Positions 3,658 through 49,630 of a stretch of 50,121 nucleotides of DNA are shown in pieces. The position numbers and the translations under genes were made by a program. The stretch spans positions 1-50,121 of the forward strand of contig DASWJH010000015.1 in the NCBI GenBank assembly GCA_036397255.1, in the 5' to 3' direction. Numbering within the stretch: position 1 is the first letter of the stretch; every line of letters begins with the position of its first letter. Below the pieces are notes generated by a model, which was not told the DNA's origin, made no database searches, and worked only from the letters and a program-made list of their open reading frames with translations. The DNA comes from Nitrospiria bacterium (GTDB taxonomy: Bacteria; Nitrospirota; Nitrospiria; DASWJH01).

Positions 3658-4095
3658 ATGGCACTGTCAGATTTTTGCAAGGGACCTGTAATTACTGCAT
3701 CTCCGGAAGAGAGTGTGTTGCATGCTTCAATCTTGATGCGGGATAATAAAATTGGATCTGTGGTGATCACCAAAGATGAAAGGCCCATTGGTATTTTGAC
3801 AGACCGGGATATCGTGATGCGGTTAATGACGGATAGCAAAGAAGGATTCAACACAAAAATCCAGGAGGTGATGACCAAAAATCCTTATGTGGTTCCGGAA
3901 GGGATTGGCATTTGGGACCTGATTAAGAGGATGAAGAAATATGCTGTGCGGCGCTTTCCGGTTGTTTCCGGTGAAGGTAAAATTGTTGGGATGATTACAA
4001 TGGATGACCTCATTGAGTTAATGGGCGAGGAGTTGTCCGGCCTGGGTCATACCATTTCTCAAGAAGTGGGCCACGGTGAAATGAAAGCCGCCTAA
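3658..4095 (+). CDS. paired CBS-domain protein
   Basis: Small cytosolic protein of 145 residues that is essentially one CBS pair (Bateman module). The first CBS motif spans about residues 8-62 (IGSVVITKDERPIGILTDRD) and the second about 72-130 (RRFPVVSGEGKIVGMITMDD). Such modules bind adenine nucleotides and regulate partner enzymes or channels. No effector domain is attached, so the partner must be encoded elsewhere. AAGGAGG lies just upstream of the ATG. A strong terminator directly follows, so it is transcriptionally separate from the cytochrome block downstream. The ligand is not predictable. Confidence 0.88.
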   Translation: MALSDFCKGPVITASPEESVLHASILMRDNKIGSVVITKDERPIGILTDRDIVMRLMTDSKEGFNTKIQEVMTKNPYVVPEGIGIWDLIKRMKKYAVRRFPVVSGEGKIVGMITMDDLIELMGEELSGLGHTISQEVGHGEMKAA

Positions 4096-4110
4096 GGATT
4101 AATGGTCTTT

Positions 4111-4146
4111 GGAGGAAAAGAGGAGTTTTTTTCCTCCATTTTTTTT
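4111..4146 (+). terminator. rho-independent terminator after the CBS gene
   Basis: The inverted repeat GGAGGAAAA (4111-4119) and TTTTCCTCC (4129-4137) encloses a nine-base loop and is followed by A and eight Ts. It lies 15 bases after the CBS stop codon and insulates the cytochrome operon that starts at 4257. Confidence 0.8.
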
Positions 4147-4256
4147 GAAAAGCGAGGAGAGAGAAAAGGAGAGTGATTTTGACTCAAACCAATTTTTTTA
4201 GCCAAGCAAAGACCCAAAAAACGATTTTTCCTGATAAAAATAAGATAGGTGGGATC

Positions 4257-6494: not shown

Positions 6495-6498
6495 GAGA

Positions 6499-6810
6499 AT
6501 GGGAAAATTTTCTTTTCTGGTTCCTCTGCTCCTCCTGTTCTTGTTGAGCTGCGCAGAATCGGGGGATGATGAGGGGCAGAACTTAGGGAATCTTTTTGAA
6601 GGTCCCGGTGGTATTATTGTGACACAGGCGGAACACCCTGAGGGTTGGGGACGTTCGGACTGTTTGATTTGTCATCCGGCAGAAGAAATCCATCGTGTTA
6701 ATCGAACAGGTGAAGGAACACTTCCCCTTGAGGATATCAGGGAACTTGCCCTGAGGGCAGGCGTAGGGGGGTGCTCGGTATGCCATGGGGACAACGGGGT
6801 TACCGAATAA
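6499..6810 (+). CDS. small dihaem c-type cytochrome lipoprotein
   Basis: Predicted 103-residue lipoprotein with two haem-binding sites, CLICH (Cys55) and CSVCH (Cys92). The signal peptide has lipobox LLSC (Cys18), followed by an acidic linker ESGDDEG. It starts four bases after the decahaem stop and its stop touches the TTG of the porin-like gene, so the three are almost certainly co-translated. The small size suggests a relay subunit next to the decahaem protein or at the mouth of the barrel. I do not recognise a named family. Membrane leaflet (inner face of the outer membrane or surface) cannot be told from sequence. Confidence 0.82.
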   Translation: MGKFSFLVPLLLLFLLSCAESGDDEGQNLGNLFEGPGGIIVTQAEHPEGWGRSDCLICHPAEEIHRVNRTGEGTLPLEDIRELALRAGVGGCSVCHGDNGVTE

Positions 6811-8106
6811 TTGGGAAAAAGATTTTTAAAAATCGGTTTGATTGCCTTTATCTTACTCTTTTCCAAAACGGGGGAAGCCAACGGCGAAGAAGAGATGCTA
6901 ATGCCTCAGGGTCCTTCCGTCGTTGGAAACTTCACTCTTGCCTTCCAGGCCAATAGCCCTCTCATCCGTTCCAATGGAAACCGGGAAAAGGTCCATCCCT
7001 TTTACCAATACCTGGAGCTCAATGCGGTTAGTCCGAAAGAGGGTCTTTCCTTTAACAGTTATTCAAGAGGAAGGCAGGTTTTTAGCGGAGAAGAACGCTC
7101 CTTTGATGCGTATTACGCTTTCCTGGAATATAGAAATGGTGGGGGAACAGTCGATGTCCGGTTAGGCAGGCAGATTCTAACAGAGGGGACCAATTATTAC
7201 CTGGTGGATGGAGGTTTGGTTAAATTTCGCCCCACGCAAGACATAGAAATCTTGGCTTATGCAGGGTACCAGGATCGAGATACCCACCCAGACCCTGAAG
7301 CTCCCTTAATCAGCTCATCCATATATGGGGTCAAATTAAAATCCAGTGAATTTCTCGATTCGATTATTTCGTTGGGATATGAAAGGATCAATCCCCAGGA
7401 TTTTGGCTCAAGGGATTTTCTTCATTTATCATTGAACAGACTGGTTCCGTTTACCGAGTCTGCGGACTTTTATACACGGGGGGAAATCGATGTAGGGGAG
7501 GGAGATCTTGCACTTTTGACCACGGGGGTGGGAATGACTCCCTACAAATCCCTTCACCTCAATGTGGAATATGATGTTTCCCGGCCTGACGGAGATCGGG
7601 GAGATTATTTGCAGGACCGCATTTTTGATCTTTTTTCAGTCAGCCGTCTTCACCAGGCGAAGACCGGTGTGACCTACATCCCGGCGAAATTTCTAAAAAC
7701 CTCTGCCAGCTATGCATTTTCCAGATATGAGGTATCCAACGGGGTGAGGGCCTACGGCCATCTGACCAGATTGGGTTTTTCCTGGGATTTTTGGCGTCGG
7801 GTCGGCCTCAAAGCCTTTCAAGGGCTTTATTATTTAAAAGGCCGTGGAAAGGACGAGGCGGTGGGGGTGAATTTCAGCGTTTCTGAGGAAATACTCAGAG
7901 GACTCAATTTACATTACTCGTTTGCATTTGTTCATGTGGAGACGTTGACCAACAAGATAGGGGATGCTTTCAGCCATGCGTTTGGACTTCAATATTTATT
8001 GATCCGAAATCTTTTATTGAAAGCCGAGGTTGAATTGAATGATAATCCTGATTTTCAAACCGATACCCGTGTCAATCTGGTAGCCAGCTATGATTTTTAC
8101 TTCTGA
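6811..8106 (+). CDS. porin-like outer-membrane beta-barrel of the electron conduit
   Basis: Predicted outer-membrane barrel of 431 residues without cysteine haem motifs. After a signal peptide (about residues 1-24, ending TGEANG) the sequence is a run of alternating amphipathic strands with aromatic ends (NSYSRGRQVF, YYAFLEYRNGGGTVDVRLGRQIL, LRGLNLHYSFAFVHVE) and the terminal aromatic residue typical of barrels (YDFYF). By position it would be the sheath through which cytochromes cross the outer membrane, as MtrB or OmbB do. Sequence similarity to those is not obvious to me, and it is shorter than MtrB. The start is TTG, directly abutting the upstream stop (TAATTG); later ATGs would remove the signal peptide. 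Confidence 0.8.
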   Translation: MGKRFLKIGLIAFILLFSKTGEANGEEEMLMPQGPSVVGNFTLAFQANSPLIRSNGNREKVHPFYQYLELNAVSPKEGLSFNSYSRGRQVFSGEERSFDAYYAFLEYRNGGGTVDVRLGRQILTEGTNYYLVDGGLVKFRPTQDIEILAYAGYQDRDTHPDPEAPLISSSIYGVKLKSSEFLDSIISLGYERINPQDFGSRDFLHLSLNRLVPFTESADFYTRGEIDVGEGDLALLTTGVGMTPYKSLHLNVEYDVSRPDGDRGDYLQDRIFDLFSVSRLHQAKTGVTYIPAKFLKTSASYAFSRYEVSNGVRAYGHLTRLGFSWDFWRRVGLKAFQGLYYLKGRGKDEAVGVNFSVSEEILRGLNLHYSFAFVHVETLTNKIGDAFSHAFGLQYLLIRNLLLKAEVELNDNPDFQTDTRVNLVASYDFYF

Positions 8107-8728
8107 AATCAAAAATGAGATCTTTCTTGGGGTTATCCTGGTTGGTATTTTTCTACTTCAGGGATGCCGTATGTCAGAAGTGGAGTGGGGATGGAAGGCC
8201 CAGAGGCCGGCGAGCATCCAGGAAGTTTTCTCCCATGAGGTACATGAAACCGTGTTGGAAAAAGAAGGGTTTGCCTGCTCGGTGTGCCATCCCATGGGGG
8301 CATTGATTGAGGAGGAAAAAGAAGAAGAAAAAATGTATGATTTTTCCAAAGAGGTTTTCTTTCCCGGAAAAGAGACCTGCCATTTTTGCCATTTTAACCC
8401 CAAGGGAATCAACGTGGCGCCGGGCAGGTGCGGCCTCTGTCATTTCGATCTTCTGGAGGTTCAGCCTGCCAATCATCAATTCGACTGGGGTTCCAAGCAT
8501 GGGGTCTACGCCAAAGCAGATGGGGGAGATTGTGGAAGCTGCCATCTTCCCAAGTTTTGTGAGGATTGCCATCAGCGAAGAGATCTTCCGACGCAAAGGG
8601 TTCATGACCGGAATTTCAGGTTTGTTCACGGAATGGAGGCTCGGGTCAATCCAAAATCTTGTGGTAACTGCCACGAGCTGATTGGGTTTTGCGCGAGCTG
8701 CCATATCGAGGGGGGATATGAAAGGTAA
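8090..8728 (+). CDS. heptahaem c-type cytochrome lipoprotein
   Basis: Predicted lipoprotein of 212 residues with seven CxxCH sites at about Cys63, 97, 114, 148, 157, 191 and 201. The N-terminal membrane segment ends in lipobox LLQGC (Cys26). The haems are packed closely in the last 150 residues, as in wire-like periplasmic cytochromes. The ATG overlaps the end of the porin-like gene by 17 bases, so the two are translationally linked. No strong ribosome site is seen. The likely role is the periplasmic or barrel-inserted partner, an MtrA analogue, though it has seven rather than ten haems. The gene end overlaps the next cytochrome by 11 bases. Confidence 0.85.
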   Translation: MIFTSEIKNEIFLGVILVGIFLLQGCRMSEVEWGWKAQRPASIQEVFSHEVHETVLEKEGFACSVCHPMGALIEEEKEEEKMYDFSKEVFFPGKETCHFCHFNPKGINVAPGRCGLCHFDLLEVQPANHQFDWGSKHGVYAKADGGDCGSCHLPKFCEDCHQRRDLPTQRVHDRNFRFVHGMEARVNPKSCGNCHELIGFCASCHIEGGYER

Positions 8729-9311
8729 TTGGTGGCTAATGGTCATTCTTTTTTTGATCCTATCTCCCGGAGTCATAAGTGCCCAGGAGGGGGATGAGGA
8801 AAATCCCCATGTGGAGATGCTTGACGATCAGTTTGTTTGCCTGGATTGCCACACCCGGCTTCCGAAGGAAGGGGAAACCAGTCCAGATTATTTTCTGGTT
8901 GATCTTCCCTCAGAGAATTGTCTAGGCTGTCATTCGGAAGTGGAACATTCTGGGGTGAAGGAACATGAGAAGAAAGATTCGGGTCCGCTTCCAGGGGATG
9001 AAAACAGAAAAATGACCTGCTTTACCTGCCATGATCCCCACCCCCAAGGTTCCATTCATGGAAGGATTGTTTATGATTCGGAGGTGAACCCAAGGAGCAG
9101 GGATTTTACAAGAATCATTCATTTTCCGGATGTTGAAAAAAGGGCCAAAAAAGAAGTGGCCCCGGGTAAAAAAAAGGAAGTTTATCTTAGGTTTCCCATG
9201 GGTCAGGACCAACTTTGCCGGGAGTGCCATGACCCTTTGAAGGAAGCCCAATGGAGAGAGGGGATTTTATGGAACAAGTTTTTAAGGTTTTTTTCCTATT
9301 CATTGCCCTAG
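8718..9311 (+). CDS. tetrahaem periplasmic c-type cytochrome
   Basis: Predicted exported protein of 197 residues with four CxxCH sites at about Cys41, 68, 101 and 167. A signal peptide covers residues 1-22 (ending VISAQEG) and no lipobox is present. Extra histidines (HDPHPQGSIHG, IIHF) could serve as distal ligands. The start is ATG 8718, preceded by GAGGGGGG; a longer in-frame start at 8682 lacks a ribosome site and would bury the signal. The gene overlaps both neighbours, upstream by 11 bases and downstream by 43. It probably shuttles or relays electrons between the inner-membrane NapC-like protein and the outer-membrane complex. The family is not recognised beyond multihaem cytochrome c. 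Confidence 0.83.
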   Translation: MKGNWWLMVILFLILSPGVISAQEGDEENPHVEMLDDQFVCLDCHTRLPKEGETSPDYFLVDLPSENCLGCHSEVEHSGVKEHEKKDSGPLPGDENRKMTCFTCHDPHPQGSIHGRIVYDSEVNPRSRDFTRIIHFPDVEKRAKKEVAPGKKKEVYLRFPMGQDQLCRECHDPLKEAQWREGILWNKFLRFFSYSLP

Positions 9312-9769
9312 TTTTTGTAGGAAGTATGGCCTTGGCCCAAGAGAAAAAAAGTGCCGAGGAGGGGCGTAAAATTTTTGTGGAGAAAAGATGTTATACCTGT
9401 CATACGGTCAAAGCGGAAGGCGAATTAATCGAAAAGGAAAAAGAGGCATTCGCCAAATCCAAGGGGGTTGAGCTAAAAGGCGAAGATGAGGATGACGGCG
9501 ACGGGGAAGATGAAGATAAAAAAGATTCAAAGATAGGTGGGGATCTTTCCCATGTGGGAAAGGAGAGAGAAGGAAAGTGGATCCGAGACTTTATTCAAAA
9601 ACCCAAGGACCAATTTAAGGATTCTTCCGATTGCAAGAGAAAAGCTAAGAAAAAAGATCGAAAGCGTTTTAAAGGAACGGAAAAGGAACTGGAGGTTTTG
9701 GTAGGATACATTTCCGGTTTGAAATATCCGCAACAAGAGAAAAAACCCGAAACCTGTTTGAAAGAGTAG
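9269..9769 (+). CDS. monohaem cytochrome c with acidic insert
   Basis: Exported 166-residue protein with a signal peptide (residues 1-23, ending SMALAQE) and one haem site, CYTCH at Cys41. The surrounding EEGRKIFVEKRC and later GGDLSHVGKEREGKWIRDFI resemble class I cytochrome c. Residues about 70-92 form an Asp/Glu-rich stretch (GEDEDDGDGEDEDKKD). The last third is lysine-rich with two further cysteines (SSDCKRK, PETCLKE). I see no clear axial methionine near the C-terminus, so the sixth ligand is uncertain. The start is ATG 9269 with AGAGGGG upstream. The protein could be the soluble carrier feeding the conduit. Confidence 0.83.
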   Translation: MEQVFKVFFLFIALVFVGSMALAQEKKSAEEGRKIFVEKRCYTCHTVKAEGELIEKEKEAFAKSKGVELKGEDEDDGDGEDEDKKDSKIGGDLSHVGKEREGKWIRDFIQKPKDQFKDSSDCKRKAKKKDRKRFKGTEKELEVLVGYISGLKYPQQEKKPETCLKE

Positions 9770-9799
9770 ATTCTAAAGAAAGATTGAGAGGGAAAACGT

Positions 9800-10411
9800 A
9801 TGCTTGAGGAAAATTTGGTCAAAGCTATTGGTATTGGCTTGTGTGTGTTCACCATTCTTCTTGTGGTTTATACGATTTTCTTCAGACCGAAGTCCTTTCT
9901 GGAAGATATCACCGCCCGTTGGCTTTTATTGTTTGGATTTGTCATTTTATCCCCTCTGGCCTATCTGTTGAGCTTTGCCATGGTGTTCGAAGATTCTAAA
10001 ACGGTTTCGTTCTGTAATTCCTGCCATGTGATGGAAAGCCGTGTTGAGAATCTCAAAAACCCTGATAGTGAATATTTGGCCGCCCAGCATTATCAATTCC
10101 GGTGGATTGCAAATAATCAGTGCTATCACTGTCATACGGATTATAATCTTTTCGGAGGGTTCAGAGGAAAAATTGCCGGGTTTAGGCATGTTTGGGCCTA
10201 TTATGTGGTGGGTTATGAGTTGCCCCTAAAAATTTATGGGACTTACGATAACCAGATCTGTCTTTATTGCCACGGGCCGGTACGTAATTATCAAGAACTG
10301 GAAGAGCATCAGGATTACCTAAAGGATCTTGATCTCAGCAAGAAGTCCTGTTTAGGATCAGATTGTCATATCGCAACACATCCCAAAGAGAGGAAGAAAA
10401 GTGGCCTCTGA
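9800..10411 (+). CDS. NapC/NirT-like membrane tetrahaem cytochrome
   Basis: Probable inner-membrane quinol dehydrogenase subunit of 203 residues. Two hydrophobic segments lie at about residues 8-28 and 41-62. Haem sites follow: CNSCHVM (Cys72, with Met78 placed like the Met ligand of NrfH haem 1), CYHCH (Cys108), CLYCH (Cys154) and a non-standard CX4CH, CLGSDCH (Cys184). NapC/NrfH proteins usually have one transmembrane anchor, so the extra N-terminal helix is unusual. It lies at the end of the multihaem operon, where it would connect the quinone pool to the periplasmic cytochromes. GAGAGGG precedes the ATG, and the gene overlaps the next by 11 bases. Confidence 0.85.
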   Translation: MLEENLVKAIGIGLCVFTILLVVYTIFFRPKSFLEDITARWLLLFGFVILSPLAYLLSFAMVFEDSKTVSFCNSCHVMESRVENLKNPDSEYLAAQHYQFRWIANNQCYHCHTDYNLFGGFRGKIAGFRHVWAYYVVGYELPLKIYGTYDNQICLYCHGPVRNYQELEEHQDYLKDLDLSKKSCLGSDCHIATHPKERKKSGL

Positions 10412-38553: not shown

Positions 38554-38585
38554 TTGACCCTGTACCTAAGTACAGGGATTATGAT
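38554..38585 (+). promoter_or_regulatory. MerR-type promoter/operator of the metal island
   Basis: A -35 element TTGACC (38554-38559) and -10 element TATGAT (38580-38585) are separated by 20 bases, longer than the usual 17, as in MerR-family promoters that need regulator-induced DNA untwisting. The spacer holds the perfect palindrome CCCTGTACCTAAGTACAGGG (38558-38577), with GTAC cores like those of mercury operators. It lies 19 bases upstream of the MerR ATG. Confidence 0.85.
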
Positions 38586-38604
38586 GATTTTGGAGGATTT
38601 CAAA

Positions 38605-39021
38605 ATGAAGACTTTTTCTTCGGGCCAATTGGCCAAAAAAGCCGGTGTCCATATTGAAACCATCCGGTTTTATGAACGGCGCGGACTTATTCCTAAAATG
38701 CCCCGGACCGGTTCGGGGTATCGAACATTTTCGGATGAGAGTGTGACCCGGATTCAATTTATTAAAGGGGCACAAATGGTGGGTTTTACTCTCAAGGAGA
38801 TTCAGGATCTGTTTTCCCTACGGGTTGATCCAAAGACCTCTTGCGGGAATATTAAAAAAAGAGCCGAGATCAAAATTTCAGAGATTGATTCAAAAATCTT
38901 GGCCCTGAAAAAAATGAGAAAAGCACTGTTTCGTTTAAAACATTCTTGCAGAGGGCGCGGTCCCACCAGTGAATGTCCGATTTTGGAAGCTCTGGATCGT
39001 CGAGGAGGAAAAATCCTTTGA
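38605..39021 (+). CDS. merR: MerR-family mercury-type transcriptional regulator
   Basis: Regulator of 138 residues. The N-terminal winged helix has SSGQLAKKAGVHIETIRFYERRGLI, followed by the dimerisation helix. Three cysteines are at 80, 115 and 124 (KTSCGN, KHSCRGRGP, SECPIL); their spacing of 35 and 9 equals that of Tn501 MerR Cys82/117/126, which bind Hg(II). ATG 38605 follows GGAGG; a longer frame starting inside the operator is rejected. It is the first gene of the operon it probably controls, so autoregulation is likely. Response to mercury is inferred from these cysteines. Confidence 0.88.
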   Translation: MKTFSSGQLAKKAGVHIETIRFYERRGLIPKMPRTGSGYRTFSDESVTRIQFIKGAQMVGFTLKEIQDLFSLRVDPKTSCGNIKKRAEIKISEIDSKILALKKMRKALFRLKHSCRGRGPTSECPILEALDRRGGKIL

Positions 39022-39035
39022 AGGATAGGAAAGAG

Positions 39036-39230
39036 ATGGAAATAAATGCCCGAATCACATGTCCCTTTTGCCGTTTTGAGAAAGAGGAGACCATGCCGAG
39101 GGATTTTTGTCAAATCAATTACATCTGTGGACGTTGCAAGAGGATGATGAAACCTAAACCTGGGACCTGTTGTATCTTTTGTTCCTACAGCGATACCGTT
39201 TGTCCACCGAAACAAATGAATAACTTTTAA
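39036..39230 (+). CDS. GDCCVxC-domain-like small cysteine-rich protein
   Basis: Cytosolic protein of 64 residues with nine cysteines. A CPFC pair near the N-terminus and CGRC in the middle precede KPGTCCIFCSYSDTVCPP, which is the GDCCVxC-domain signature seen in proteins near mer and other heavy-metal genes. It probably binds metal through these cysteine clusters. The start ATG 39036 has AGGAAAG upstream and lies 14 bases after the merR stop; an out-of-frame longer version overlaps merR and is unlikely. It is in the MerR operon. The biochemical role is unknown. Confidence 0.8.
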   Translation: MEINARITCPFCRFEKEETMPRDFCQINYICGRCKRMMKPKPGTCCIFCSYSDTVCPPKQMNNF

Positions 39231-39252
39231 GGAATTTAACGGGAGGTTTGAA

Positions 39253-39783
39253 ATGAATAAAGCATTTTGGGTTTTCCTTACGTTCCTTTTCTTTCTTGGA
39301 ATATCTACCCATGTGGGCCTTACATTTGCTGAATCAAAAAAAACAATTTTATTTCATTTGAAAACCAGTCTCAAGCATGATGACGCACAAATCTGCGTGG
39401 CTTACAATCAAATTTGGGCCGCTCTGGAGGAAGGGCTCAACGTCAATGTTCTCATTGATGCGGACGCCGTAAATACCTATAAAGTGGGATGGTTTGGGAA
39501 GGACGGAATTGAAAAGTTTAAACTGCCAGAAAACTTAAAATCATCGCTCTCTCAACAGTTTGGATTGAAAATGGAGGACATCCCTGCAACCTATGGGGAT
39601 TACCTCCACATGCTAAGGCAAAAAGGCGCCCAATTCTATATCAATAGTTCCATGTTGGTCGTTGCCGGAATTGAAGAAGATTTGGGTGCGGTTGATCATC
39701 TATCGGCCCCATTTTTTAAACCCCTCGGCCTCCGGGAAATGATCCGTTTGCGAAAGGAAGCGAATCTTTATATGGCTTATTGA
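39253..39783 (+). CDS. exported DsrE/DsrF-like protein
   Basis: Protein of 176 residues with a signal peptide (residues 1-24, ending GLTFAES). The mature part KKTILFHLKTSLKHDDAQ...NVNVLIDADAV and GAQFYINSSMLVVAGI fits the DsrE/DsrF-like alpha/beta fold, usually linked to sulfur-transfer or redox roles. A mature cysteine, QICVAYN near residue 50, could be reactive, but the family's Cys positions vary. GGGAGG precedes ATG. It is in the MerR operon; export to the periplasm is unusual for this family and may mean metal/thiol chemistry outside the cytosol. Confidence 0.78.
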   Translation: MNKAFWVFLTFLFFLGISTHVGLTFAESKKTILFHLKTSLKHDDAQICVAYNQIWAALEEGLNVNVLIDADAVNTYKVGWFGKDGIEKFKLPENLKSSLSQQFGLKMEDIPATYGDYLHMLRQKGAQFYINSSMLVVAGIEEDLGAVDHLSAPFFKPLGLREMIRLRKEANLYMAY

Positions 39784-39796
39784 GAGAAAACAAGAC

Positions 39797-40054
39797 ATGG
39801 TTTTGAATGTCAAAGAATCTGGCCTCATCGGAGGTCTCTTTGCACTCCCTTGGTGCTGTATCTCACCAGGAATTTTTTCTGTTATCGGATTGGCTGGCAT
39901 GGATCTGTCCCGACAAGTCACCGGGAACCTTTCACCTATTCTACTTGTTATGTCCTTGTTTTTTCTGGGAAGAGTCCATTTTTTATTGTACGTCAAGGCT
40001 CAAGGAAGCCGAACCAGCGCTGTCGTGACTTGGGTTTCAACCCTGTTGGGATGA
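39797..40054 (+). CDS. MerT-like small membrane protein
   Basis: Membrane protein of 85 residues with about two to three hydrophobic segments. The first carries GLIGGLFALPWCCISPGIF, a vicinal Cys pair placed as in MerT/MerC mercury transporters, where the CC hands Hg(II) through the membrane. The second and third segments are at about residues 46-64 and 70-84. No further Cys pair is seen, unlike MerT, which has a second in a loop. Association with the MerR operon supports a mercury or metal importer. Position, not full homology, carries the assignment. Confidence 0.65.
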   Translation: MVLNVKESGLIGGLFALPWCCISPGIFSVIGLAGMDLSRQVTGNLSPILLVMSLFFLGRVHFLLYVKAQGSRTSAVVTWVSTLLG

Positions 40055-40071
40055 GCTCTTTGGAGGTTGAG

Positions 40072-40908
40072 ATGGTTTGGATCAATTCAATGAAGGGATT
40101 CGTTGGAGGAATGGCCTTTTGGTTCCTATTGATAGGAACCTCCTATGCCCATGAACCCATATTTATGATCAGCCATGAGGCACCCGGTAAAGGAGCTTTT
40201 GACCTTCATACCGAAATGACCCATGAGCGCCAGGGAGATGAGCGGGAGTTTGAGATAGAGCAAGAATTCACCTACGGTCTGACGCGGGACTTGGCCGTAG
40301 GCCTTTCCATGCCCTTTGTCCGTGAGGAAGAAATGACCTCAACGGGTCAAGACGTAGAAAACGGCCTGGGTGATCCGACTGTGCGCCTCAAATGGCGTTT
40401 TTGGGATAAAGATCTTCCCGGCGTGAAGTATGCCATTGCCACTGTGATTCAGTCCACTCTTCCAGTCGGTGAAGGGGATGGAAGGCTTGGCCGTGATCAA
40501 CCGAGCATTCTCGGGGGCCTGGCCCATGGGCGTGAGGGGCTGCACTGGTACTATTTTGTGGACGCTCGATACCTTTATCATGTTGAAGATCATCAGAGCA
40601 TGCCGGGGAACCGGATCTATTTCGATGTGGCGTATGGGCTGCGCCCGGAACTTCGGGGGTTGGAAGAAACAGACATTGTTTATTTCTTCGAATTAAATTA
40701 TCTCCATGAGCGACAGGCCGAGGTCAGTGGAATTCCAAATCCCGACACCGGCGGGGATTTTCTCTTTTTCTCCCCCGAAATTTTAATTTCACCAACGAAT
40801 CGAGTCATGTTGCGGGGTGGGGTACAGATTCCGGTTCTGCAATCGTTAAACGGACAACAAGAGCCGAAGGATTTTAATTTTAAGGCACTTGCGGAGTTTA
40901 GATTTTAG
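40072..40908 (+). CDS. outer-membrane beta-barrel (Phenol_MetA_deg-like)
   Basis: Exported protein of 278 residues. A signal peptide (about residues 1-26, ending SYAHEP) is followed by alternating beta strands: EFEIEQEFTYGLTRDLAVGLSMPF, GLGDPTVRLKWRFW and YAIATVIQSTLPVGEGDG match outer-membrane barrels of the Phenol_MetA_deg group. It ends in LAEFRF with a terminal aromatic residue. The start is ATG 40072, five bases after GGAGG; an ATG 21 bases upstream has none. It follows the MerT-like gene by 17 bases, so it appears co-transcribed. It could be an outer-membrane channel for the island's substrate. Confidence 0.75.
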   Translation: MVWINSMKGFVGGMAFWFLLIGTSYAHEPIFMISHEAPGKGAFDLHTEMTHERQGDEREFEIEQEFTYGLTRDLAVGLSMPFVREEEMTSTGQDVENGLGDPTVRLKWRFWDKDLPGVKYAIATVIQSTLPVGEGDGRLGRDQPSILGGLAHGREGLHWYYFVDARYLYHVEDHQSMPGNRIYFDVAYGLRPELRGLEETDIVYFFELNYLHERQAEVSGIPNPDTGGDFLFFSPEILISPTNRVMLRGGVQIPVLQSLNGQQEPKDFNFKALAEFRF

Positions 40909-41101
40909 CAGGATGTTGAAAAACTTCGAATCCGTCATTCCCGAATGGTTTTATCGGGCCCGCCTGCCGGCAGGCAGGAATCCAGGATTTTTAAAATCAA
41001 CAACTTCTGGATTCCCGCTCCCCGATAGAGGCATTCGAGGACAGGTTTCGCGGGAATGACGACCTAACGCACAAATACATCCTTTTTCAACACCCTGTTA
41101 G
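40906..41101. mobile_element. MITE-like palindromic element with terminal inverted repeats
   Basis: About 196 bases bounded by imperfect inverted repeats, TAGCAGGATGTTGAAAAA (40906-40923) and the complement of CTAACAGGGTGTTGAAAAA (41083-41101). Inside are nested palindromes, including copy D of the dispersed repeat (from 40934, GTCATTCCCG) and its complement ending at 41060. No transposase or coding frame is present. It begins over the outer-membrane protein's stop codon and separates it from the HMA-like gene. Target duplications were not clear. Confidence 0.6.
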
Positions 41102-41120
41102 TAAAGGAGGGGGGATTAAC

Positions 41121-41657
41121 ATGAAATACAAAGTTTTTTTGTTTTCGATGCTTTCAACCATCTTTTTTTCCCCATCACCGCCTGAAGCAAAGGTGATTGC
41201 CCCTTCTGCCGAGAAGGGTGAGAATAAGATTTTTATTCGTGCGGATGGACTGGCCTGTTACTTCTGCGCCTACGGTATGGAGCGCTTTTTTAAACAATCT
41301 GGCCGGATTGCCTGGTATGACATGAAGATGACAGAAGGAATTGTGGAGATTGGGTTTATCAGGGGCAAACCGATTCTGGATATTCAAACATTAAGAAAAT
41401 ATGTATACGATGCTGGATTTTCCCCCCGTGAGATCAAGGCTGAATTCGTGGGAAGGTTCAACCAGTTAAATGAAGGTTACACCTTTCAAATCACAGAAAC
41501 AGAGCAAATTTTCCCAGTGGAGGAGAATGCCATCATCCAACAAGCCATCGACATGATTGACCGTGAGGTCGTTTTGAAAGCGGGTACAAAGGATGCCCGA
41601 GATGCACCCTTTAAACTTGTGCCTGAATCCATAGACCCAAAAGGGTTTTCACCGTGA
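41121..41657 (+). CDS. exported HMA-like CxxC metal-binding protein
   Basis: Protein of 178 residues with a signal peptide (about residues 1-24). The segment FIRADGLACYFCAYGMERFFKQSGRI resembles the heavy-metal-associated domain, with CxxC (Cys46, Cys49) in place of the usual GMTCxxC. The domain ends by residue 110; a second half of unknown fold follows. AAGGAGGGGGG lies just upstream. Exported HMA-like proteins scavenge copper, silver or mercury in the periplasm. It overlaps the NHL gene by four bases. It is the first gene after the MITE-like element, so its promoter may be distinct from that of the MerR operon. Confidence 0.75.
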   Translation: MKYKVFLFSMLSTIFFSPSPPEAKVIAPSAEKGENKIFIRADGLACYFCAYGMERFFKQSGRIAWYDMKMTEGIVEIGFIRGKPILDIQTLRKYVYDAGFSPREIKAEFVGRFNQLNEGYTFQITETEQIFPVEENAIIQQAIDMIDREVVLKAGTKDARDAPFKLVPESIDPKGFSP

Positions 41658-42640
41658 AAAGACCAAATTCCTTCATACCCGGGCCATTTATTATTTCCTA
41701 TTATATAGGGTTTATTTTACTTTTTTTGTGGGGTATTTCGGAATCATCCGCTGAAGACGGTTTTAAACTCCTTTCGACATGGGGAAAAACCGGGGAGGCC
41801 CCAGGACAATTTCGGGAGCCTATGGGCCTTGCGTTTGATCCCGAAGGAAACCTGTATGTTGCGGATACCCGTAATGCTCGGATTCAAAAATTCACAGAAA
41901 AAGGAGAATTTCTTCTCCAATTTGGAGAACCCGGTAAGGGCCCGGGGGAATTTTCAAAACCGGTGGATGTTGTCGTAGACCAGACGGGTCAGGTTTATGT
42001 CAGTGACTACGATCTCGATCGGATACAGATCTTTTCTCCTGAAGGCAAATTTTTGAGGCAGTGGGGAAAAAGTGGAAAGGATCGTGGTCATTTTACGGTT
42101 GCCGCTGGGTTGGGAATGGATCGTGAACGGAGGCGGATCTATCTTGCTGAGTTTTATAACAAGCGGGTGGAGGTCTATGACCTGGATGGAGAACTTCAGT
42201 TCCAGGTCGGAGAACCTGGGAGAGTCTGGGGTGGAGCTATGAACTATCCAACCGATGTGGCCGTGGATCGGGATGGGAATATATACGTGGCGGATGCCTA
42301 TAATCACCGGATCCAGAAGTTCACCCCCAAAGGCAAGGTCCTAGCTAAATGGGGTGGTTTCTTCGGCTGGGGGATCCCAGCTTCCTGGAAAGGCTGGTTT
42401 CGGGTGCCTTCCGGTATCGGGGTGGATTCAGAAGGGCGGATCTTTGTGGCCGACAGTGCCAACCACCGGATGGTTGCACTCTCGGGGAACGGCCGTGTTT
42501 TGGATCAGTGGGACCTGGATCTTCCTACCGAATTATTATCACCCAACCGTGTGGCTGTGGGCCTGGATAGCCGGATCTTTGCCACCGATACGGCCCATGA
42601 CAGGTTATTGGTGTTTGAATTTCTATCTAATGGGGATTAA
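41654..42640 (+). CDS. exported NHL-repeat beta-propeller protein
   Basis: Protein of 328 residues with a hydrophobic N-terminal signal (about residues 10-32), then about six NHL repeats forming a beta-propeller. Repeat signatures include LYVADTRNARIQKF, VYVSDYDLDRIQIF and IYVADAYNHRIQKF. The GTG start overlaps the HMA-like gene's stop by four bases, so the two are co-translated. Propellers of this kind are often binding platforms; a partner may be the adjacent HMA-like protein. The ligand is unknown. Confidence in the fold is high. Confidence 0.87.
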   Translation: MKRPNSFIPGPFIISYYIGFILLFLWGISESSAEDGFKLLSTWGKTGEAPGQFREPMGLAFDPEGNLYVADTRNARIQKFTEKGEFLLQFGEPGKGPGEFSKPVDVVVDQTGQVYVSDYDLDRIQIFSPEGKFLRQWGKSGKDRGHFTVAAGLGMDRERRRIYLAEFYNKRVEVYDLDGELQFQVGEPGRVWGGAMNYPTDVAVDRDGNIYVADAYNHRIQKFTPKGKVLAKWGGFFGWGIPASWKGWFRVPSGIGVDSEGRIFVADSANHRMVALSGNGRVLDQWDLDLPTELLSPNRVAVGLDSRIFATDTAHDRLLVFEFLSNGD

Positions 42641-42650
42641 ACCTGATATT

Positions 42651-42759
42651 CCCCGTAGCATGCTACGGGGTAGCTATTTAGTTCCCCCTTTGGAAAAGGG
42701 GGATTCAGGGGGATTAAATTTTGTAAAATCTCCCCTTGCCCCTCTTTTCCAAAGAGGGG
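42651..42759. repeat. cluster of three palindromes
   Basis: After the NHL gene come a perfect 20-base palindrome (42651-42670, arms CCCCGTAGCA and TGCTACGGGG), a hairpin CCCCCTTTGGAAAAGGGGG (42684-42702) and a hairpin CCCCTCTTTTCCAAAGAGGGG (42739-42759). They resemble the G/C-rich hairpin strips at 29401 and 30964. They may terminate the HMA/NHL transcript. Confidence 0.6.
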
Positions 42760-42889
42760 AATCTTAATATGGGGATTTGAGGATTCAGTTTAGACTTTTG
42801 CGGGGTAATATGTGCAAAATGAATGATTCGGACGCTTGCTTTCCTTTAAGTCGTGTGATATTCTTTTTAAAACTGTAAGGAGAAAGTTC

Positions 42890-43306
42890 TTGAAAAAGAT
42901 TCCTCCAACGGTAAGAGTAGTTGCTTTCCTGGCTTTCATTACATTCGTTTTTTTATCGAGTCAGCCAACCCTTGCCTGTCTTCTTCCCTCCCACTCAAAA
43001 ATGAGCGAAGGTAAATCCATGGCCTGTTGTGAAGAGCACTGCCGGATGGATACCACCCCTCAAGTCGCAAAGCAGAACTGCAACCAAAGCCTGATTGCCT
43101 TCTCAACGCATCCGGTGTTAACCGGCTCCATTTCTTATGGCATTAACTATTATGTAGACGACCCATCCGATTTAGGTCATATCTTAAAAAATGAACCTTT
43201 CCCAGAGGAGAACCCTCTCCGAGTCTTTTCTTCAAGAGAAATTGATTCTCCTAAATACAACCGACCTGTTAAGCTTTATATCGTCACCCGCTCCCTTCTT
43301 ATTTAA
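42890..43306 (+). CDS. exported Cys/His/Met-containing protein upstream of the Cus-like operon
   Basis: Protein of 138 residues with a signal peptide (residues 1-28, ending QPTLACLL). A short mature segment SKMSEGKSMACCEEHCRMD carries three cysteines, a histidine and several methionines and may bind soft metals. The rest is unrecognised. The start is TTG 42890, preceded by AAGGAGAA; no in-frame ATG fits. It lies about 125 bases upstream of the TolC-like gene and in the same direction, so it may be a periplasmic metal-binding companion of the efflux system. That role is inferred. Confidence 0.62.
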   Translation: MKKIPPTVRVVAFLAFITFVFLSSQPTLACLLPSHSKMSEGKSMACCEEHCRMDTTPQVAKQNCNQSLIAFSTHPVLTGSISYGINYYVDDPSDLGHILKNEPFPEENPLRVFSSREIDSPKYNRPVKLYIVTRSLLI

Positions 43307-43431: not shown

Positions 43432-44712
43432 ATGTTAAGACCAAAAGTACTATTCATTCTCATTGGGTTCGCGTTGGAGGTTCTGATCAGCACGGTGAAT
43501 CCTCATGCCCATTCCGCAGAACCAGAAAAAGAAAATCCCCCGATTGTGTCTTTATCAAACTTAATCGAGAAAGCTTTAGAGAGCAATCCGGAAATTATGG
43601 CCATGAAACAGGGTTTTGAGGCAACTAGATCGCAGATTGATCAAGACAGGTCTTTAGACGATCCCCAATTGACCATCACCCAGTGGGCTATCCCATCGGA
43701 TTTCAATGTCGGTGATGCCGATGAGACCTGGTATGGCATCGGCCAGAGCTTTCCTTTCCCGGGTAAGTTATCTCTGAAGGGAAAGATTGCCGCCAAATTG
43801 GCAGATGCTGCGGAACAGAACTACATGGCAAAAGTCCTGGAGGTGACGGCCCGTATAAAATTATCCTACTATCATCTTTTTCTGATTCAAAAGAGCATTG
43901 ACTTGCATTTGGAACATCAGAGTCTTTTGGAGGAATTTATTCAGATTGCGGATCAAAAATATTCAGTGGGTCAGGCATCACAACAAGATCTCCTCAAGGC
44001 CCAGGTGGAGCTATCCAAACTTCACAACAGCCTGTTGGTCCTAAAGCAGGAGGAAGTATCCGCCAAGGCTGAACTCAATGCCATGTTGAATCAACCCCCT
44101 GAAACGATGCTGGGACGTGTTGAAGATGTGGAATATCGCTCTTTTTCTCTGACCACTGAGGAGTTAACCCGGCAGGCGCTCGAATTGCGGCCGGAACTAA
44201 AAGCGGTCCAGTTTCTGATTGAGAAAAGTGAGCAGGCCCGATCACTGGCAAAAAAGAATTACTTTCCGGATTTTATGGTTGAGGTGATGTACTGGGACGT
44301 TCATACGGGACCTGACAAGTGGATGGCAGTGGGCAAGGTCAATCTCCCCTGGATTTTTAAAGGCAAATACGATGCCCGTGTCAGCCAAGCTGTGGCCGAA
44401 GAGGCTCAAGCCCGGGCGGACCAGACGGCCCTTCGCAACCAAACGTTGTTTGAGCTTCGGGATCTATTTACGAAGATCAAGACGGCAGAGCAGCTTATTG
44501 AGGTATACCAAAAAGGGGTGTTGCCTCAGGCCGAGCAGTCCCTGAAGGCAGCACGGATCGGCTACCAGGCGGGGAAGGTTGGGTTTCTTGATCTGATCGA
44601 CAGCGAACGCACGCTGTTGGATTTTCAACTGGAATATTTTGAGGCACTGGTCCGGTTCTGGCAGTCGGTTGCCAAACTGGAGCGGACTGTAGGGAATGAA
44701 TTGAACATTTAA
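43432..44712 (+). CDS. TolC-family outer-membrane efflux protein (CusC-like)
   Basis: Outer-membrane channel of 426 residues for a tripartite efflux pump. The N-terminal signal (about residues 1-28, ending NPHAHSAEP) is followed by long coiled-coil helices (VSLSNLIEKALESNPEIMAMKQGF, RPELKAVQFLIEKSEQARSLA) in the usual TolC duplication. GKVGFLDLIDSERTLLDFQLEYF is the typical closing segment. No lipobox is present. The start is ATG 43432 with AGGGAGG; a GTG six codons earlier is less likely. It is followed by the adaptor after 25 bases. Confidence 0.9.
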   Translation: MLRPKVLFILIGFALEVLISTVNPHAHSAEPEKENPPIVSLSNLIEKALESNPEIMAMKQGFEATRSQIDQDRSLDDPQLTITQWAIPSDFNVGDADETWYGIGQSFPFPGKLSLKGKIAAKLADAAEQNYMAKVLEVTARIKLSYYHLFLIQKSIDLHLEHQSLLEEFIQIADQKYSVGQASQQDLLKAQVELSKLHNSLLVLKQEEVSAKAELNAMLNQPPETMLGRVEDVEYRSFSLTTEELTRQALELRPELKAVQFLIEKSEQARSLAKKNYFPDFMVEVMYWDVHTGPDKWMAVGKVNLPWIFKGKYDARVSQAVAEEAQARADQTALRNQTLFELRDLFTKIKTAEQLIEVYQKGVLPQAEQSLKAARIGYQAGKVGFLDLIDSERTLLDFQLEYFEALVRFWQSVAKLERTVGNELNI

Positions 44713-44737: not shown

Positions 44738-46378
44738 ATGAAAGCCAAAAACATTTTAATATTCTTGAGCGGTGTTCTAGCGACACTGGTTTTTATAGGG
44801 ATGACCTGGTATTCGGGGTTATTCATGGGATTTATGACATCTCCGGAAGTCCCAAAGATGGAGGATATGGCGGGGATGGATATGGGGGGAATGGAGATGG
44901 AAGGGATGAAAAATCAATCAGGAATGGCACAGGCGGCCGTCATGGTTGCCCCATCCCGCAAGCAGTTGATCGGGGTGAAGACCAAAAAGGTGAAGGAGCA
45001 AACCCTTGAGACGGTGATCCGCACGGTGGGAAGCGTCGACTATGATGAGCGTCGTGTTCGTCAGGTCAATCTCCGGATTTCGGGCTGGATTACCGACCTT
45101 TTTGTGGACTATACCGGAAAATTCGTAAAAAAAGGAGATCCGCTTTTTACCCTCTATAGTCCGGATTTGGTCTCGACTCAGGAAGAATATCTTCTCGCCC
45201 TTAAAACCCTTGAACGGGTTCAAGCCAGTCCTGTTGCCCATATCCGCAGCGGGGCCCGGTCCCAAGTGGAATCGGCGCGGAAGCGGCTTCTGTTATGGAA
45301 TCTTACCGACGCGCAGCTCGAAGGCTTGAAAGAGGGACAGCATCCGGAAGTGGAGACCAAGATCTATTCCCCCATTAACGGGGTGGTGACCAAAAAGATG
45401 GCCGTCCAAGGAATGTATGCCACCCCGGAAACGAACCTCTATGAGATTGCCGATCTCTCGGTGGTGTGGGTCTTTGCGGATATTTATGAATATGAACTGT
45501 CGGCGGTGAAGGTCGGACAGTCTGCAACGGCAACTCTTACCTCCTATCCGGGTGAAAACTTCAACGGGAAGGTAATCTACATCTACCCCTATCTGAATAA
45601 AGAAACCCGGACGGTAAAGGTCCGTTTGGAGTTTCCAAATCCGCAGGGGAAATTCAAGCCGGGGATGTACGGAAATGTTGAGATTCGAGTAACACCCGGA
45701 AAACATATCGCGGTTCCTCAAAATGCGTTGCTGGATTCCGGGACGAGAAAGCTTGTGTTCGTGGATCAGGGGGATGGCATGTATGAGCCGAGAGAGGTGA
45801 CGGTGGGTCATAAGACCGGGCAGTACTATCCCGTCCTTGCCGGTTTAGAAGCAGGAGAATCGGTTGTGACTTCGGGAACCTTCTTGATCGATTCCGAAAG
45901 CAAACTCATGGCCGCCGCCAATATGATGGGGATGCTGGGCATGGGGGGCATCAAAATGGAACAGGCCCAGATGGGCGAGATGGAGATGGGGGGTATGGAA
46001 GGGATGCAGGGCATGGAGGGAATGAAGGGGAAGGAAGGGATGAAGATGAATCAGCCTTCTTCTCCACGGGAACAGACCGTAGAGGGTCTGACCCTGACAC
46101 TGGCGACCGAGCCTGAGCCGCCAAAGAAAGGTGAAAACCGAGTCCGTCTGACCGTTCAGGCCCAGGGATCTCCGGTGACCGATGCCGCTGTGACACTGGC
46201 CTACACCATGGCCATGCCCGGTATGGAAATTGAAACCGTGGAGGTGAAGCACACCAAGGACGGAATCTATGAGGCCGAGGTGGATTTCGGGATGAAGGGC
46301 GCTTGGGAGATTGAAGCCAGCATCGTTCGTGGTTCGGGAAAACCGGTGAAGGCGAAGTTCACCCTCAAGGTGAAATAG
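44738..46378 (+). CDS. CusB-type periplasmic adaptor with Met-rich arms and YtkA-like tail
   Basis: Membrane-fusion protein of 546 residues joining the RND pump to the outer-membrane channel. The N-terminus has a membrane anchor then a Met-rich arm (MEDMAGMDMGGMEMEG). The adaptor core follows (VGSVDYDERRVRQVNLRISGWI, VFADIYEYELSAVKVGQSA). Beyond it is a second Met/Gly-rich segment (about residues 395-440), then a FixH/YtkA-like beta domain (GLTLTLATEPEPPKKGENRVRL) at the end. Such arms bind Cu(I) or Ag(I). Typical CusB is near 400 residues, so the tail adds about 100. It is separated from the pump by 114 bases. Confidence 0.9.
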   Translation: MKAKNILIFLSGVLATLVFIGMTWYSGLFMGFMTSPEVPKMEDMAGMDMGGMEMEGMKNQSGMAQAAVMVAPSRKQLIGVKTKKVKEQTLETVIRTVGSVDYDERRVRQVNLRISGWITDLFVDYTGKFVKKGDPLFTLYSPDLVSTQEEYLLALKTLERVQASPVAHIRSGARSQVESARKRLLLWNLTDAQLEGLKEGQHPEVETKIYSPINGVVTKKMAVQGMYATPETNLYEIADLSVVWVFADIYEYELSAVKVGQSATATLTSYPGENFNGKVIYIYPYLNKETRTVKVRLEFPNPQGKFKPGMYGNVEIRVTPGKHIAVPQNALLDSGTRKLVFVDQGDGMYEPREVTVGHKTGQYYPVLAGLEAGESVVTSGTFLIDSESKLMAAANMMGMLGMGGIKMEQAQMGEMEMGGMEGMQGMEGMKGKEGMKMNQPSSPREQTVEGLTLTLATEPEPPKKGENRVRLTVQAQGSPVTDAAVTLAYTMAMPGMEIETVEVKHTKDGIYEAEVDFGMKGAWEIEASIVRGSGKPVKAKFTLKVK

Positions 46379-46492: not shown

Positions 46493-49400
46493 ATGATCGA
46501 ACGAATCATTGAGTACAGCGCGAAAAATCCTTTTATTATTTTCCTGGGGGTGTTCCTTCTATCGGCTTGGGGCTATTGGGCTGTTACACAAACGCCGCTG
46601 GATGCCATTCCGGATCTTTCCGATGTCCAGGTCATCATCTATACGGAATGGCCGGGACGCAGCCCCAACCTGGTGGAGGATCAAATTACCTATCCCATTG
46701 TGACCTCCATGCTGGGCGCACCGAAGGTGAAATATGTCCGTGGCGCTTCAGACTTCGGTTTTTCCTATGTTTATGTGATTTTCCAGGACGGGACGGATAT
46801 TTATTGGGCCCGAAGCCGGGTATTAGAATATATGAGCAAGATTGCAGGTAAGCTCCCGGAAGAGGTCAATCCCATTTTGGGACCGGATGCCACTGGGGTC
46901 GGGTGGGTCTATCAGTATGCTCTGCTGGATGAATCCGGGCAGCACGACCTGGCCGAGCTTCGAACATATCAGGACTGGTATTTGCGGTATCAGCTCCAAG
47001 CGGTTCCTGGGGTGGCGGAGGTGGCCTCCATCGGGGGGTTTGTCAAACAGTATCAGGTGAACGTAGACCCCAATAAGCTGTTGGCATACGGTATTCCTTT
47101 CACCCGGTTGACCCAAGCCATCCGGATGAGCAACAACGATGTGGGCGGGCGGACGATCGAGATGAGCGAGCGGGAATATATGGTTCGAGGCCGGGGGTAT
47201 ATCCGATCCCTGGAAGATCTGGAGGTGATTCCTGTAGGCTTGGGCCAGAACGGCGTGCCCGTATTGCTTCGAGAGGTATCCAACATCGCACTGGGTCCTG
47301 AAATGCGACGGGGGGTGGCAGAGCTGGATGGAAAAGGGGAAGTGGTGGGCGGTATCGTGATCATGCGCTATGGGGAAAATGCCCTCAAAGTGATCGACCG
47401 GGTCAAAACCAGATTGAAGGAGATCGAACCGTCCCTTCCGGAAGGTATGCAAATCGTGACCACCTACGACCGGTCTGATTTGATTCTGCGCGCCATTGCG
47501 ACCCTTAAGGAGAAGCTCATCGAGGTGACCATCGTGGTGAGCCTGGTGAGTCTTATTTTTCTTTTCCATTTCCGCTCCGCCCTGGTGGCGATCTTGAGCC
47601 TTCCCCTGGCCATCCTCCTTTCGTTTATCGCGATGAACTATCTGGGTCTGACCTCCAATGTGATGTCCCTGGGAGGAATCGCCATCGCCATCGGGGCGAT
47701 GGTGGACGCCGCTATCGTGATGATCGAGAATGCCCACCGGAGGCTGGAACAAATGGGGCCGGGGCAGGATCGGACACAGGTGATTATCGATGCTGCAAAG
47801 GAATTGGGAAAACCTCTCTTTTTTTCACTCCTGATCATCACCGTCTCTTTCATGCCGGTCTTTACCCTCGAAGCGCAGGAAGGCAGGTTATTCAAACCCC
47901 TGGCCTTTACCAAAACCTTTGCCATGCTGTTCGCATCGTTCCTTTCGATTACATTGGTGCCCCTGCTGATGGTCTATCTTATCCGGGGGCGGATTACCCC
48001 GACACATAAAAATCCCATCAACCGTTTTCTTGTTGCCATGTATGAGCCGATTGCGCGGCTTTTTTTGAGATTTCGTGTGCTGGTGATCATTGGCGCCGTT
48101 GTTCTTTTCGGTGCCACGATACCCGTTTTTTTCAAATTGGGCTCGGAATTTATGCCGCCTCTCAATGAAGGCTCGATTCTGTATATGCCGACGGCTCTTC
48201 CCGGCATCTCGATGACGAAGGCCACTCAAGTCCTTCAGCAACAGGATGCACTGCTCATGCAATTTCCAGAGGTGGAGCGGGTGTTTGGAAAAATCGGAAG
48301 GGCGGAGACCTCCACGGATCCTGCCCCCCTTTCCATGGCGGAGACCACCATTACACTGAAACCGGAGGATCAATGGCGACCGGGAATGACATGGGATAAA
48401 CTGATTGCCGAAATGGACAAGGCCGTCCGTTTTCCCGGAATGCCGAATATTTGGTGGATGCCGATTCAAACCCGTACCGAGATGCTGGCCACCGGTGTGA
48501 GGAGCGCCGTGGGAATTAAGATTTACGGACAGGATCTACAAGAAATTGACCATATCGGAAAAAAGATCGAGGGATTGCTGTCTGGAATTCCCGGAACCCG
48601 GAGCGCTTTTTCAGAGCGGGTCACCGGAGGATATTATCTGGATTTCATTGTGAAACGCCACGAGGCCGCCCGTTACGGGTTGACGGTCCAGGAGGTGGAG
48701 GAGATCGTCGAGGCCGCGATCGGAGGAGCGAATGTGACCATGACGGTGGAAGGGCGGGAGCGCTATCCTGTGAATGTCCGCTATGCACGGGAGCTGCGGG
48801 ATGATCCGGAACGATTAAAACGAGTACTGGTTCAGACGTCTACCGGGGCACAGGTTCCATTGGAGCAGCTAGCCGAAATACGGATCGCTACCGGCCCCCC
48901 CATGATTAAAGATGAAAACGGGTCGCTGGCGGGAATCGTCTACGTGGATGTCTCGGGCCGGGACTTGGGCAGTTATGTGGAAGAGGCCAAACGGGCGGTG
49001 AATGAAAAGGTGTCACTCCCTTCGGGATACTCCCTGGGCTGGGCCGGGTCCTATCAATATATGCTCCGTGCCAAGGAAAAGCTGAAGGTGGTGGTCCCGC
49101 TCACAATCTTAATCATTTTTGTCCTGCTCTATCTGAACTTTCGCTCGGTAGGTCGTTCGCTCTTGGTGTTGCTCACGGTTCCGTTTTCGCTGGTGGGGGG
49201 AATTTTTCTTCTGGCCCTACTAGACTATAATCTGAGCGTGGCGGTCTGGGTGGGGTTGATTGCTTTGGCGGGTGTGGCTACGGAAATCGGAATCGTGATG
49301 GTGGTTTATCTTGATCAAGCCTTCAGGAAGTGCCAAAAAGAGGGACGGCTCAACACAAAAGCAGATCTGATCGAGGCTGCCGTGGAAGGAGCAGTCAAAA

Positions 49401-49630
49401 GGGTACGGCCTATTATTATGACTGCGCTGGCCATCATCGTAGGTCTTTTGCCGATCATGTGGAGCCATGGGGCCGGTGCCGATGTGATGAAACGAATTGC
49501 CGCGCCCATGATCGGCGGCATGGTGACCACCACGCTGCTGACGTTGTTTGTCATTCCAGCTATTTATGTGATATGGCAGGGAAGCGGAAATGCTTTCAGA
49601 AAGATGAAGAACGAGCGAAGAGGATTTTGA
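46493..49630 (+). CDS. CusA/CzcA-type heavy-metal RND efflux pump
   Basis: Inner-membrane pump of 1045 residues, the usual size of the family, exporting Cu(I)/Ag(I) or related ions. Signatures of the heavy-metal RND branch are clear: QTPLDAIPDLSDVQVIIYTEWPGRSP near the start and IAIGAMVDAAIVMIENAHRR with its proton-relay Asp and Glu in TM4. Methionines of LYMPTALPG, PLSMAETT and RTEMLATG lie where I recall the CusA metal triad. The start ATG 46493 has only a weak ribosome site (AGGCAAGTAAG). With the adaptor and TolC-like gene it makes a full tripartite pump. Cu/Ag specificity is inferred. Confidence 0.94.
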   Translation: MIERIIEYSAKNPFIIFLGVFLLSAWGYWAVTQTPLDAIPDLSDVQVIIYTEWPGRSPNLVEDQITYPIVTSMLGAPKVKYVRGASDFGFSYVYVIFQDGTDIYWARSRVLEYMSKIAGKLPEEVNPILGPDATGVGWVYQYALLDESGQHDLAELRTYQDWYLRYQLQAVPGVAEVASIGGFVKQYQVNVDPNKLLAYGIPFTRLTQAIRMSNNDVGGRTIEMSEREYMVRGRGYIRSLEDLEVIPVGLGQNGVPVLLREVSNIALGPEMRRGVAELDGKGEVVGGIVIMRYGENALKVIDRVKTRLKEIEPSLPEGMQIVTTYDRSDLILRAIATLKEKLIEVTIVVSLVSLIFLFHFRSALVAILSLPLAILLSFIAMNYLGLTSNVMSLGGIAIAIGAMVDAAIVMIENAHRRLEQMGPGQDRTQVIIDAAKELGKPLFFSLLIITVSFMPVFTLEAQEGRLFKPLAFTKTFAMLFASFLSITLVPLLMVYLIRGRITPTHKNPINRFLVAMYEPIARLFLRFRVLVIIGAVVLFGATIPVFFKLGSEFMPPLNEGSILYMPTALPGISMTKATQVLQQQDALLMQFPEVERVFGKIGRAETSTDPAPLSMAETTITLKPEDQWRPGMTWDKLIAEMDKAVRFPGMPNIWWMPIQTRTEMLATGVRSAVGIKIYGQDLQEIDHIGKKIEGLLSGIPGTRSAFSERVTGGYYLDFIVKRHEAARYGLTVQEVEEIVEAAIGGANVTMTVEGRERYPVNVRYARELRDDPERLKRVLVQTSTGAQVPLEQLAEIRIATGPPMIKDENGSLAGIVYVDVSGRDLGSYVEEAKRAVNEKVSLPSGYSLGWAGSYQYMLRAKEKLKVVVPLTILIIFVLLYLNFRSVGRSLLVLLTVPFSLVGGIFLLALLDYNLSVAVWVGLIALAGVATEIGIVMVVYLDQAFRKCQKEGRLNTKADLIEAAVEGAVKRVRPIIMTALAIIVGLLPIMWSHGAGADVMKRIAAPMIGGMVTTTLLTLFVIPAIYVIWQGSGNAFRKMKNERRGF

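Follow-up and report, generated by a model that had tools for sequence, protein, structure and literature searches.

The Nitrospiria genome described here carries an operon of the mer family that is controlled by a mercury-type MerR and lacks merA and that, judged from its sequence, on balance probably deals with Hg(II) or a different soft metal by capturing it on thiols and transporting it. The stretch of DNA analysed, hereafter the window, comprises 50,121 bases and is the complete contig C15 of a draft genome (3.35 Mb, 122 contigs, 97.5% complete). The operon and the adjacent pump genes lie on its + strand. The original prediction placed the operon at positions 38554-41101. The operon itself is confirmed; position 38554, however, is the beginning of a -35 hexamer, the likely start codon of the first gene is the ATG at 38605, and the gene run extends beyond the predicted end to an NHL gene that finishes at 42640. 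This run is split by a MITE-like dispersed repeat of 198 bases (40905-41102), which has 44 matches in the same genome, lies outside the function of the operon and separates the barrel gene from the HMA gene; the HMA and NHL genes beyond it are putatively co-transcribed with the others. A second dispersed repeat family, with 77 matches in the genome, is found at 42640-42790, 3' of the NHL gene. The reading frames of all operon genes are intact. Elsewhere in the window, at 4173-10411, a series of ORFs on the + strand that are rich in CxxCH motifs, together with a porin-like ORF, resembles multiheme cytochrome systems.

Regulator, promoter and encoded proteins

The first gene, merR (38605-39021), encodes a regulator in which the mercury-binding cysteine triad C80/C115/C124 has spacings of 35 and 9 residues, the same as in the MerR of Tn501. 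The exact cysteine spacing noticed originally is thus present, and the mercury MerR model TIGR02051 is the best NCBIfam model (E 4.8e-36), though its score of 123.7 bits is below the cut-off of 150.9. Among the 65 MerR ORFs of the locus set, which counts the window, 39 fit this cysteine pattern, and the closest relative of the regulator, in locus L078, is 57% identical. Upstream lies a mer-type promoter/operator (38554-38585) with -35 TTGACC (38554-38559) and -10 TATGAT (38580-38585) separated by a spacer of 19-20 bp. The palindrome that had been reported in this promoter is real: CCCTGTAC CTAA GTACAGGG occupies 38558-38577, inside the spacer, and has the classic mer operator form GTAC-N4-GTAC. 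The extended pattern TTGAC-N3-GTAC-N4-GTAC occurs once in the 50 kb when up to one mismatch is allowed and in 0 of 100 shuffles, and similar operators, CTTGACnCnGTACnnnnGTAC, adjoin the merR genes of related loci.

Three of the encoded proteins are related to known mer or thiol-rich families. The GDCCVxC-family protein (39036-39230) carries the motif GTCCIFC and 9 cysteines in 64 residues, and its predicted family membership holds at the NCBIfam cut-off (NF041374, E 2.4e-23, 82.1 versus 40 bits). The CC-containing membrane protein that had been predicted is a short MerT-like protein with a PWCC motif (39797-40054); its top NCBIfam model is MerT RC607 (E 5e-6, below cut-off), and profile-profile comparison with MerT gives E 6.5e-10. 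No MerP had been recognized in the window, yet an exported relative with an HMA-type domain, a CYFC (CxxC) motif and a C-terminal extension is encoded at 41121-41657, just beyond the predicted end of the operon. Its family matches the MerP set in profile-profile comparison (98.4%, E 5.7e-15), and Pfam HMA is matched by 11 of the 14 family members, the window protein itself being unmatched. MerT- and MerP-type transport proteins are therefore present as distant relatives, neither of which exceeds its curated single-sequence cut-off. Export of the operon proteins was judged throughout from hydrophobic N-termini.

The gene at 39253-39783 encodes the predicted exported DsrE-like protein, with a hydrophobic N-terminus that points to export and a fold supported by structure modelling and Foldseek. 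The AlphaFold model has a pLDDT of 80.7, and at E<=1e-3 its Foldseek matches are DsrE-family structures only. Pfam gave no DsrE match for the window protein itself, while PF02635 was matched by 5 of 16 relatives at E<=0.1; when the DsrE profile was run against the sequences of solved structures, no DsrE protein was matched and the one match obtained was at chance level. The single conserved cysteine, C48, is present in 15 of the 16 sequences aligned and sits where the domain's first helix begins. A scan of genome contigs yielded 70 DsrE loci, many in mer-type clusters, which span Nitrospirota, Nitrospinota, deltaproteobacteria, Gammaproteobacteria, Omnitrophica, Aminicenantes, Verrucomicrobia and Mariprofundaceae. 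In some of them ars or arsenosugar-type genes stand beside DsrE (L088 at 3855-8845, L076 at 4186-7380, L070 at 4994-9857, and also L039), so the partner metal of DsrE may vary.

The remaining genes encode an outer-membrane barrel, an NHL propeller and, further downstream, an efflux pump. The outer-membrane barrel (40072-40908), as predicted, matches PF13557 at 26.4 bits against a cut-off of 22 and is Phenol_MetA_deg-like. It is separated by the HMA gene from the gene for an exported NHL-repeat propeller (41654-42640; PF01436, E 2.8e-41). Beyond the NHL gene are a TolC/CusC-type outer-membrane efflux protein (43432-44712; PF02321), a CusB/CzcB-type adaptor (44738-46378; RND_mfp over cut-off) and a CusA/CzcA heavy-metal RND pump (46493-49630; TIGR00914, 1221.8 bits versus a cut-off of 701.5), all three of uncertain membership in the same regulon. 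Of the 59 loci with enough flank, 13 have a TolC gene no more than 3.5 kb downstream of the DsrE gene. A small cysteine-containing, probably exported ORF precedes TolC at 42836-43306, and a similar-looking ORF is seen in the Nitrospira loci L043 and L049.

In a search of plasmid records, no homologues of the window DsrE or MerT-like proteins were found, and the barrel had two weak Legionella matches only. The GDCCVxC family is present in 343 plasmid records; MerT-family genes adjoin it in all three plasmid contexts examined, and merA is annotated in none.

Mercuric reductase in the genome and in relatives

The prediction that the window holds no mercuric reductase stands, and the search for merA elsewhere in this 97.5% complete genome returned nothing over the cut-off of the MerA model. 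Full-length candidates from the whole-genome search are only 28-36% identical to the MerA of a relative. Four full-length MerA-related flavoproteins are encoded, on contigs C57, C11, C80 and C87, and each was rejected as MerA: that on C57 sits in a lipoyl/acyltransferase dehydrogenase cluster, that on C11 resembles soluble transhydrogenase, and those on C80 and C87, the two best model candidates, are without the C-terminal cysteine pair. We give very little credence to the idea that Hg(II) is nevertheless reduced by one of the latter two (G000:C80 or C87). The C80 protein does score 429.7 bits with the MerA model, just below the cut-off of 454.45, but it fits dihydrolipoyl dehydrogenase nearly as well (405.6 versus a cut-off of 408.8), is 36% identical to the relative's MerA, lacks the C-terminal CC and lies in a 4.3-kb locus without mer genes; proteins scoring about 430 bits with the MerA model are found in other genomes too. 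Since no merA was found, the operon is not classed as a complete mer resistance operon. The gene could still reside on a missing or unbinned element, the genome being a draft of 122 contigs. A search for MerB gave no match, and its controls likewise gave none, so that absence of MerB does not follow.

In relatives, merA does accompany these genes. The same-class genome G119 (locus L040) has the order MerR-MerA-barrel-HMA-NHL-DsrE, with identities to the window of 77% for the barrel, 63% for HMA, 69% for NHL and 62% for DsrE; in L072 the order is MerA-HMA-barrel-NHL-DsrE, and in L039, L041 and L043 MerA immediately precedes DsrE. The original prediction had named a merA near the operon in relatives as what would refute it, by making this a reduced ordinary mer operon. 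In L040 and L072 a true MerA does lie beside these genes, and the operon accordingly belongs to the mer kind and is no separate system. Among 76 distinct DsrE rows, MerA with a C-terminal CC lies within 5 kb in 23, 29 are without MerA although each flank exceeds 2.5 kb, and 24 have short flanks. DsrE was found in 41 of 395 Nitrospirota genomes and is associated with MerA, which exceeds the cut-off in 10 of these 41 and in 26 of the other 354 (odds ratio 4.1, p 0.0017, with genomes treated as independent although they are related).

The set also recurs without merA, and it does so in several phyla. MerA over cut-off is absent from 31 of the 41 DsrE-positive Nitrospirota genomes, among them the single-contig genomes G248, G250 and G318, and from all eight further genomes with merA-less clusters. 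In L088 the window order DsrE-barrel-HMA-NHL is found without merA, and the deltaproteobacterial locus L086 has nearly the same merA-less set as adjacent MerR-CopZ-GDCC-MerF-DsrE and MerR-HMA-barrel-NHL units, each MerR unit with its own mer operator. Of the 395 genomes, 10 encode the HMA protein, and 8 of these 10 are also positive for DsrE (p 2.7e-7, again with genomes treated as independent).

These relatives bear on a reading that we regard as unlikely, namely that the operon is an ordinary mer operon reduced by loss of merA, what is left being a remnant in decay or harmful under some conditions, as with Tn5563a. This reading is favoured by relatives that combine these genes with merA, by the dispersed repeat that splits the gene run, by the precedent of that merA-less transposon (PMC4447125) and by the DsrE tree, where the window nests among merA-linked rows (14 of the 23 rows in its supported set). 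Against a remnant, the frames are all intact and the substitution pattern is coding-like; the place of merA in L040 is taken in the window by the GDCCVxC, DsrE and MerT-like genes; and other merA-less clusters exist, single-contig genomes included. The tree position fits either merA loss or mixing of modules. Differences between the genes shared by the window and L040 concentrate at third codon positions, a pattern as expected under selection, which does not date that selection after any loss of merA. The arrangement may go back to ancestors that had merA and lost it, or it may have been merA-less when the accessory genes joined it.

It is distinctly improbable that the operon has co-opted a mer-type MerR to handle a different soft metal or a metalloid, be it Cu/Ag by way of the CusCBA-like pump or As/Sb. 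Such a role would account for the CusA/CzcA pump downstream, for locus L088, in which the window order DsrE-barrel-HMA-NHL stands without merA beside an ars operon, and for the plasmid GDCCVxC-MerT pair that adjoins ars genes; the operator and the cysteine triad, however, are of the mercury MerR type, and relatives carry MerA.

A possible route of metal handling

The prediction of a route other than Hg(II) reduction survives as a fair reading, given the mer-type regulation, the failure to find merA and the recurrence of merA-less clusters in several phyla. With the reductase missing, mercury or a metal like it is probably held or moved by the cell and not released as vapour. In the favoured reading, Hg(II) or a similar soft metal would bind MerR and switch the operon on. 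The exported HMA/MerP-like and DsrE-fold proteins would then bind the metal in the periplasm, while the barrel and the NHL protein may work at the outer envelope. The MerT-like protein would carry the metal over the inner membrane to the cysteine-rich GDCCVxC protein, whose thiols may act as the sink; export by the adjacent CusCBA-type pump may follow. Such a relay of capture, passage and export would amount to detoxification by capture and transport rather than by volatilisation. A point against this reading is that MerTP without MerA can make cells mercury-sensitive, as with Tn5563a (PMC4447125), so that import of the metal would do harm unless the operon also provided a sink. A more specific proposal, which we put forward tentatively and hold to be possible rather than probable, is a recurrent soft-metal defence that is under mer control but independent of merA: the exported DsrE-fold protein and the HMA-barrel-NHL envelope cassette would trap or export Hg(II) unreduced.

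Significance and relation to known systems

The gene merA is the usual marker of bacterial mercury resistance. If merA-less, mer-controlled operons are protective, a survey that relies on merA overlooks a class of mercury handling in which the metal is retained without volatilisation; as Nitrospirota include nitrite oxidisers, models of soil and groundwater mercury could, if this is true, be affected. A combination of MerT and GDCCVxC without merA already exists on plasmids, and what seems new is thus that the DsrE gene and the HMA-barrel-NHL cassette recur as mer partners. No description of either as a mer part was found in the titles and abstract openings of papers retrieved with 'mer operon' and 'DsrE', and among the papers searched none joined 'mer operon' with 'NHL repeat' and none mentioned GDCCVxC. 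The merA-less clusters raise a question related to that of how genomes with MerB but without MerA cope with Hg(II), posed in a study which discusses other Hg(II) handling without MerA, some of it sulfur-based, and whose text does not contain DsrE (PMC8261052).

The window DsrE protein shares its fold with the DsrE/DsrF/TusD family (3mc3, 3pnx, 2hy5), from which it differs in being exported and in having a single cysteine, placed at the beginning of the domain's first helix. The adjacent pump scores over the family cut-off for CusCBA/CzcCBA heavy-metal RND pumps, and its shared regulation with the operon is putative. The mer operons with merA compared here, which we take to be of the Tn501/Tn21 type, include L040, L072 and Nitrospira moscoviensis L105. 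The window has in common with them a mercury-type MerR, a GTAC-N4-GTAC operator and MerT- and MerP-like proteins, and with L040 and L072 the DsrE, barrel, HMA and NHL genes as well; unlike them it is without merA, and none was found elsewhere in its genome. The plasmid pairs of NZ_CP055154, NZ_CP107560 and NZ_CP146233 resemble the window in that a MerT-family gene lies next to GDCCVxC with no merA annotated nearby; in contrast to the window, two of the three have ArsR-type regulators nearby, and no DsrE or barrel-HMA-NHL gene is annotated in the stretch. Tn5563a likewise carries mer transport genes without merA; among the strains tested, six became less tolerant with its merTP and two more tolerant (PMC4447125). 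That transposon, however, is a deletion derivative of Tn5044 (PMC4447125), whereas extra envelope genes of the window type recur without merA in several phyla.
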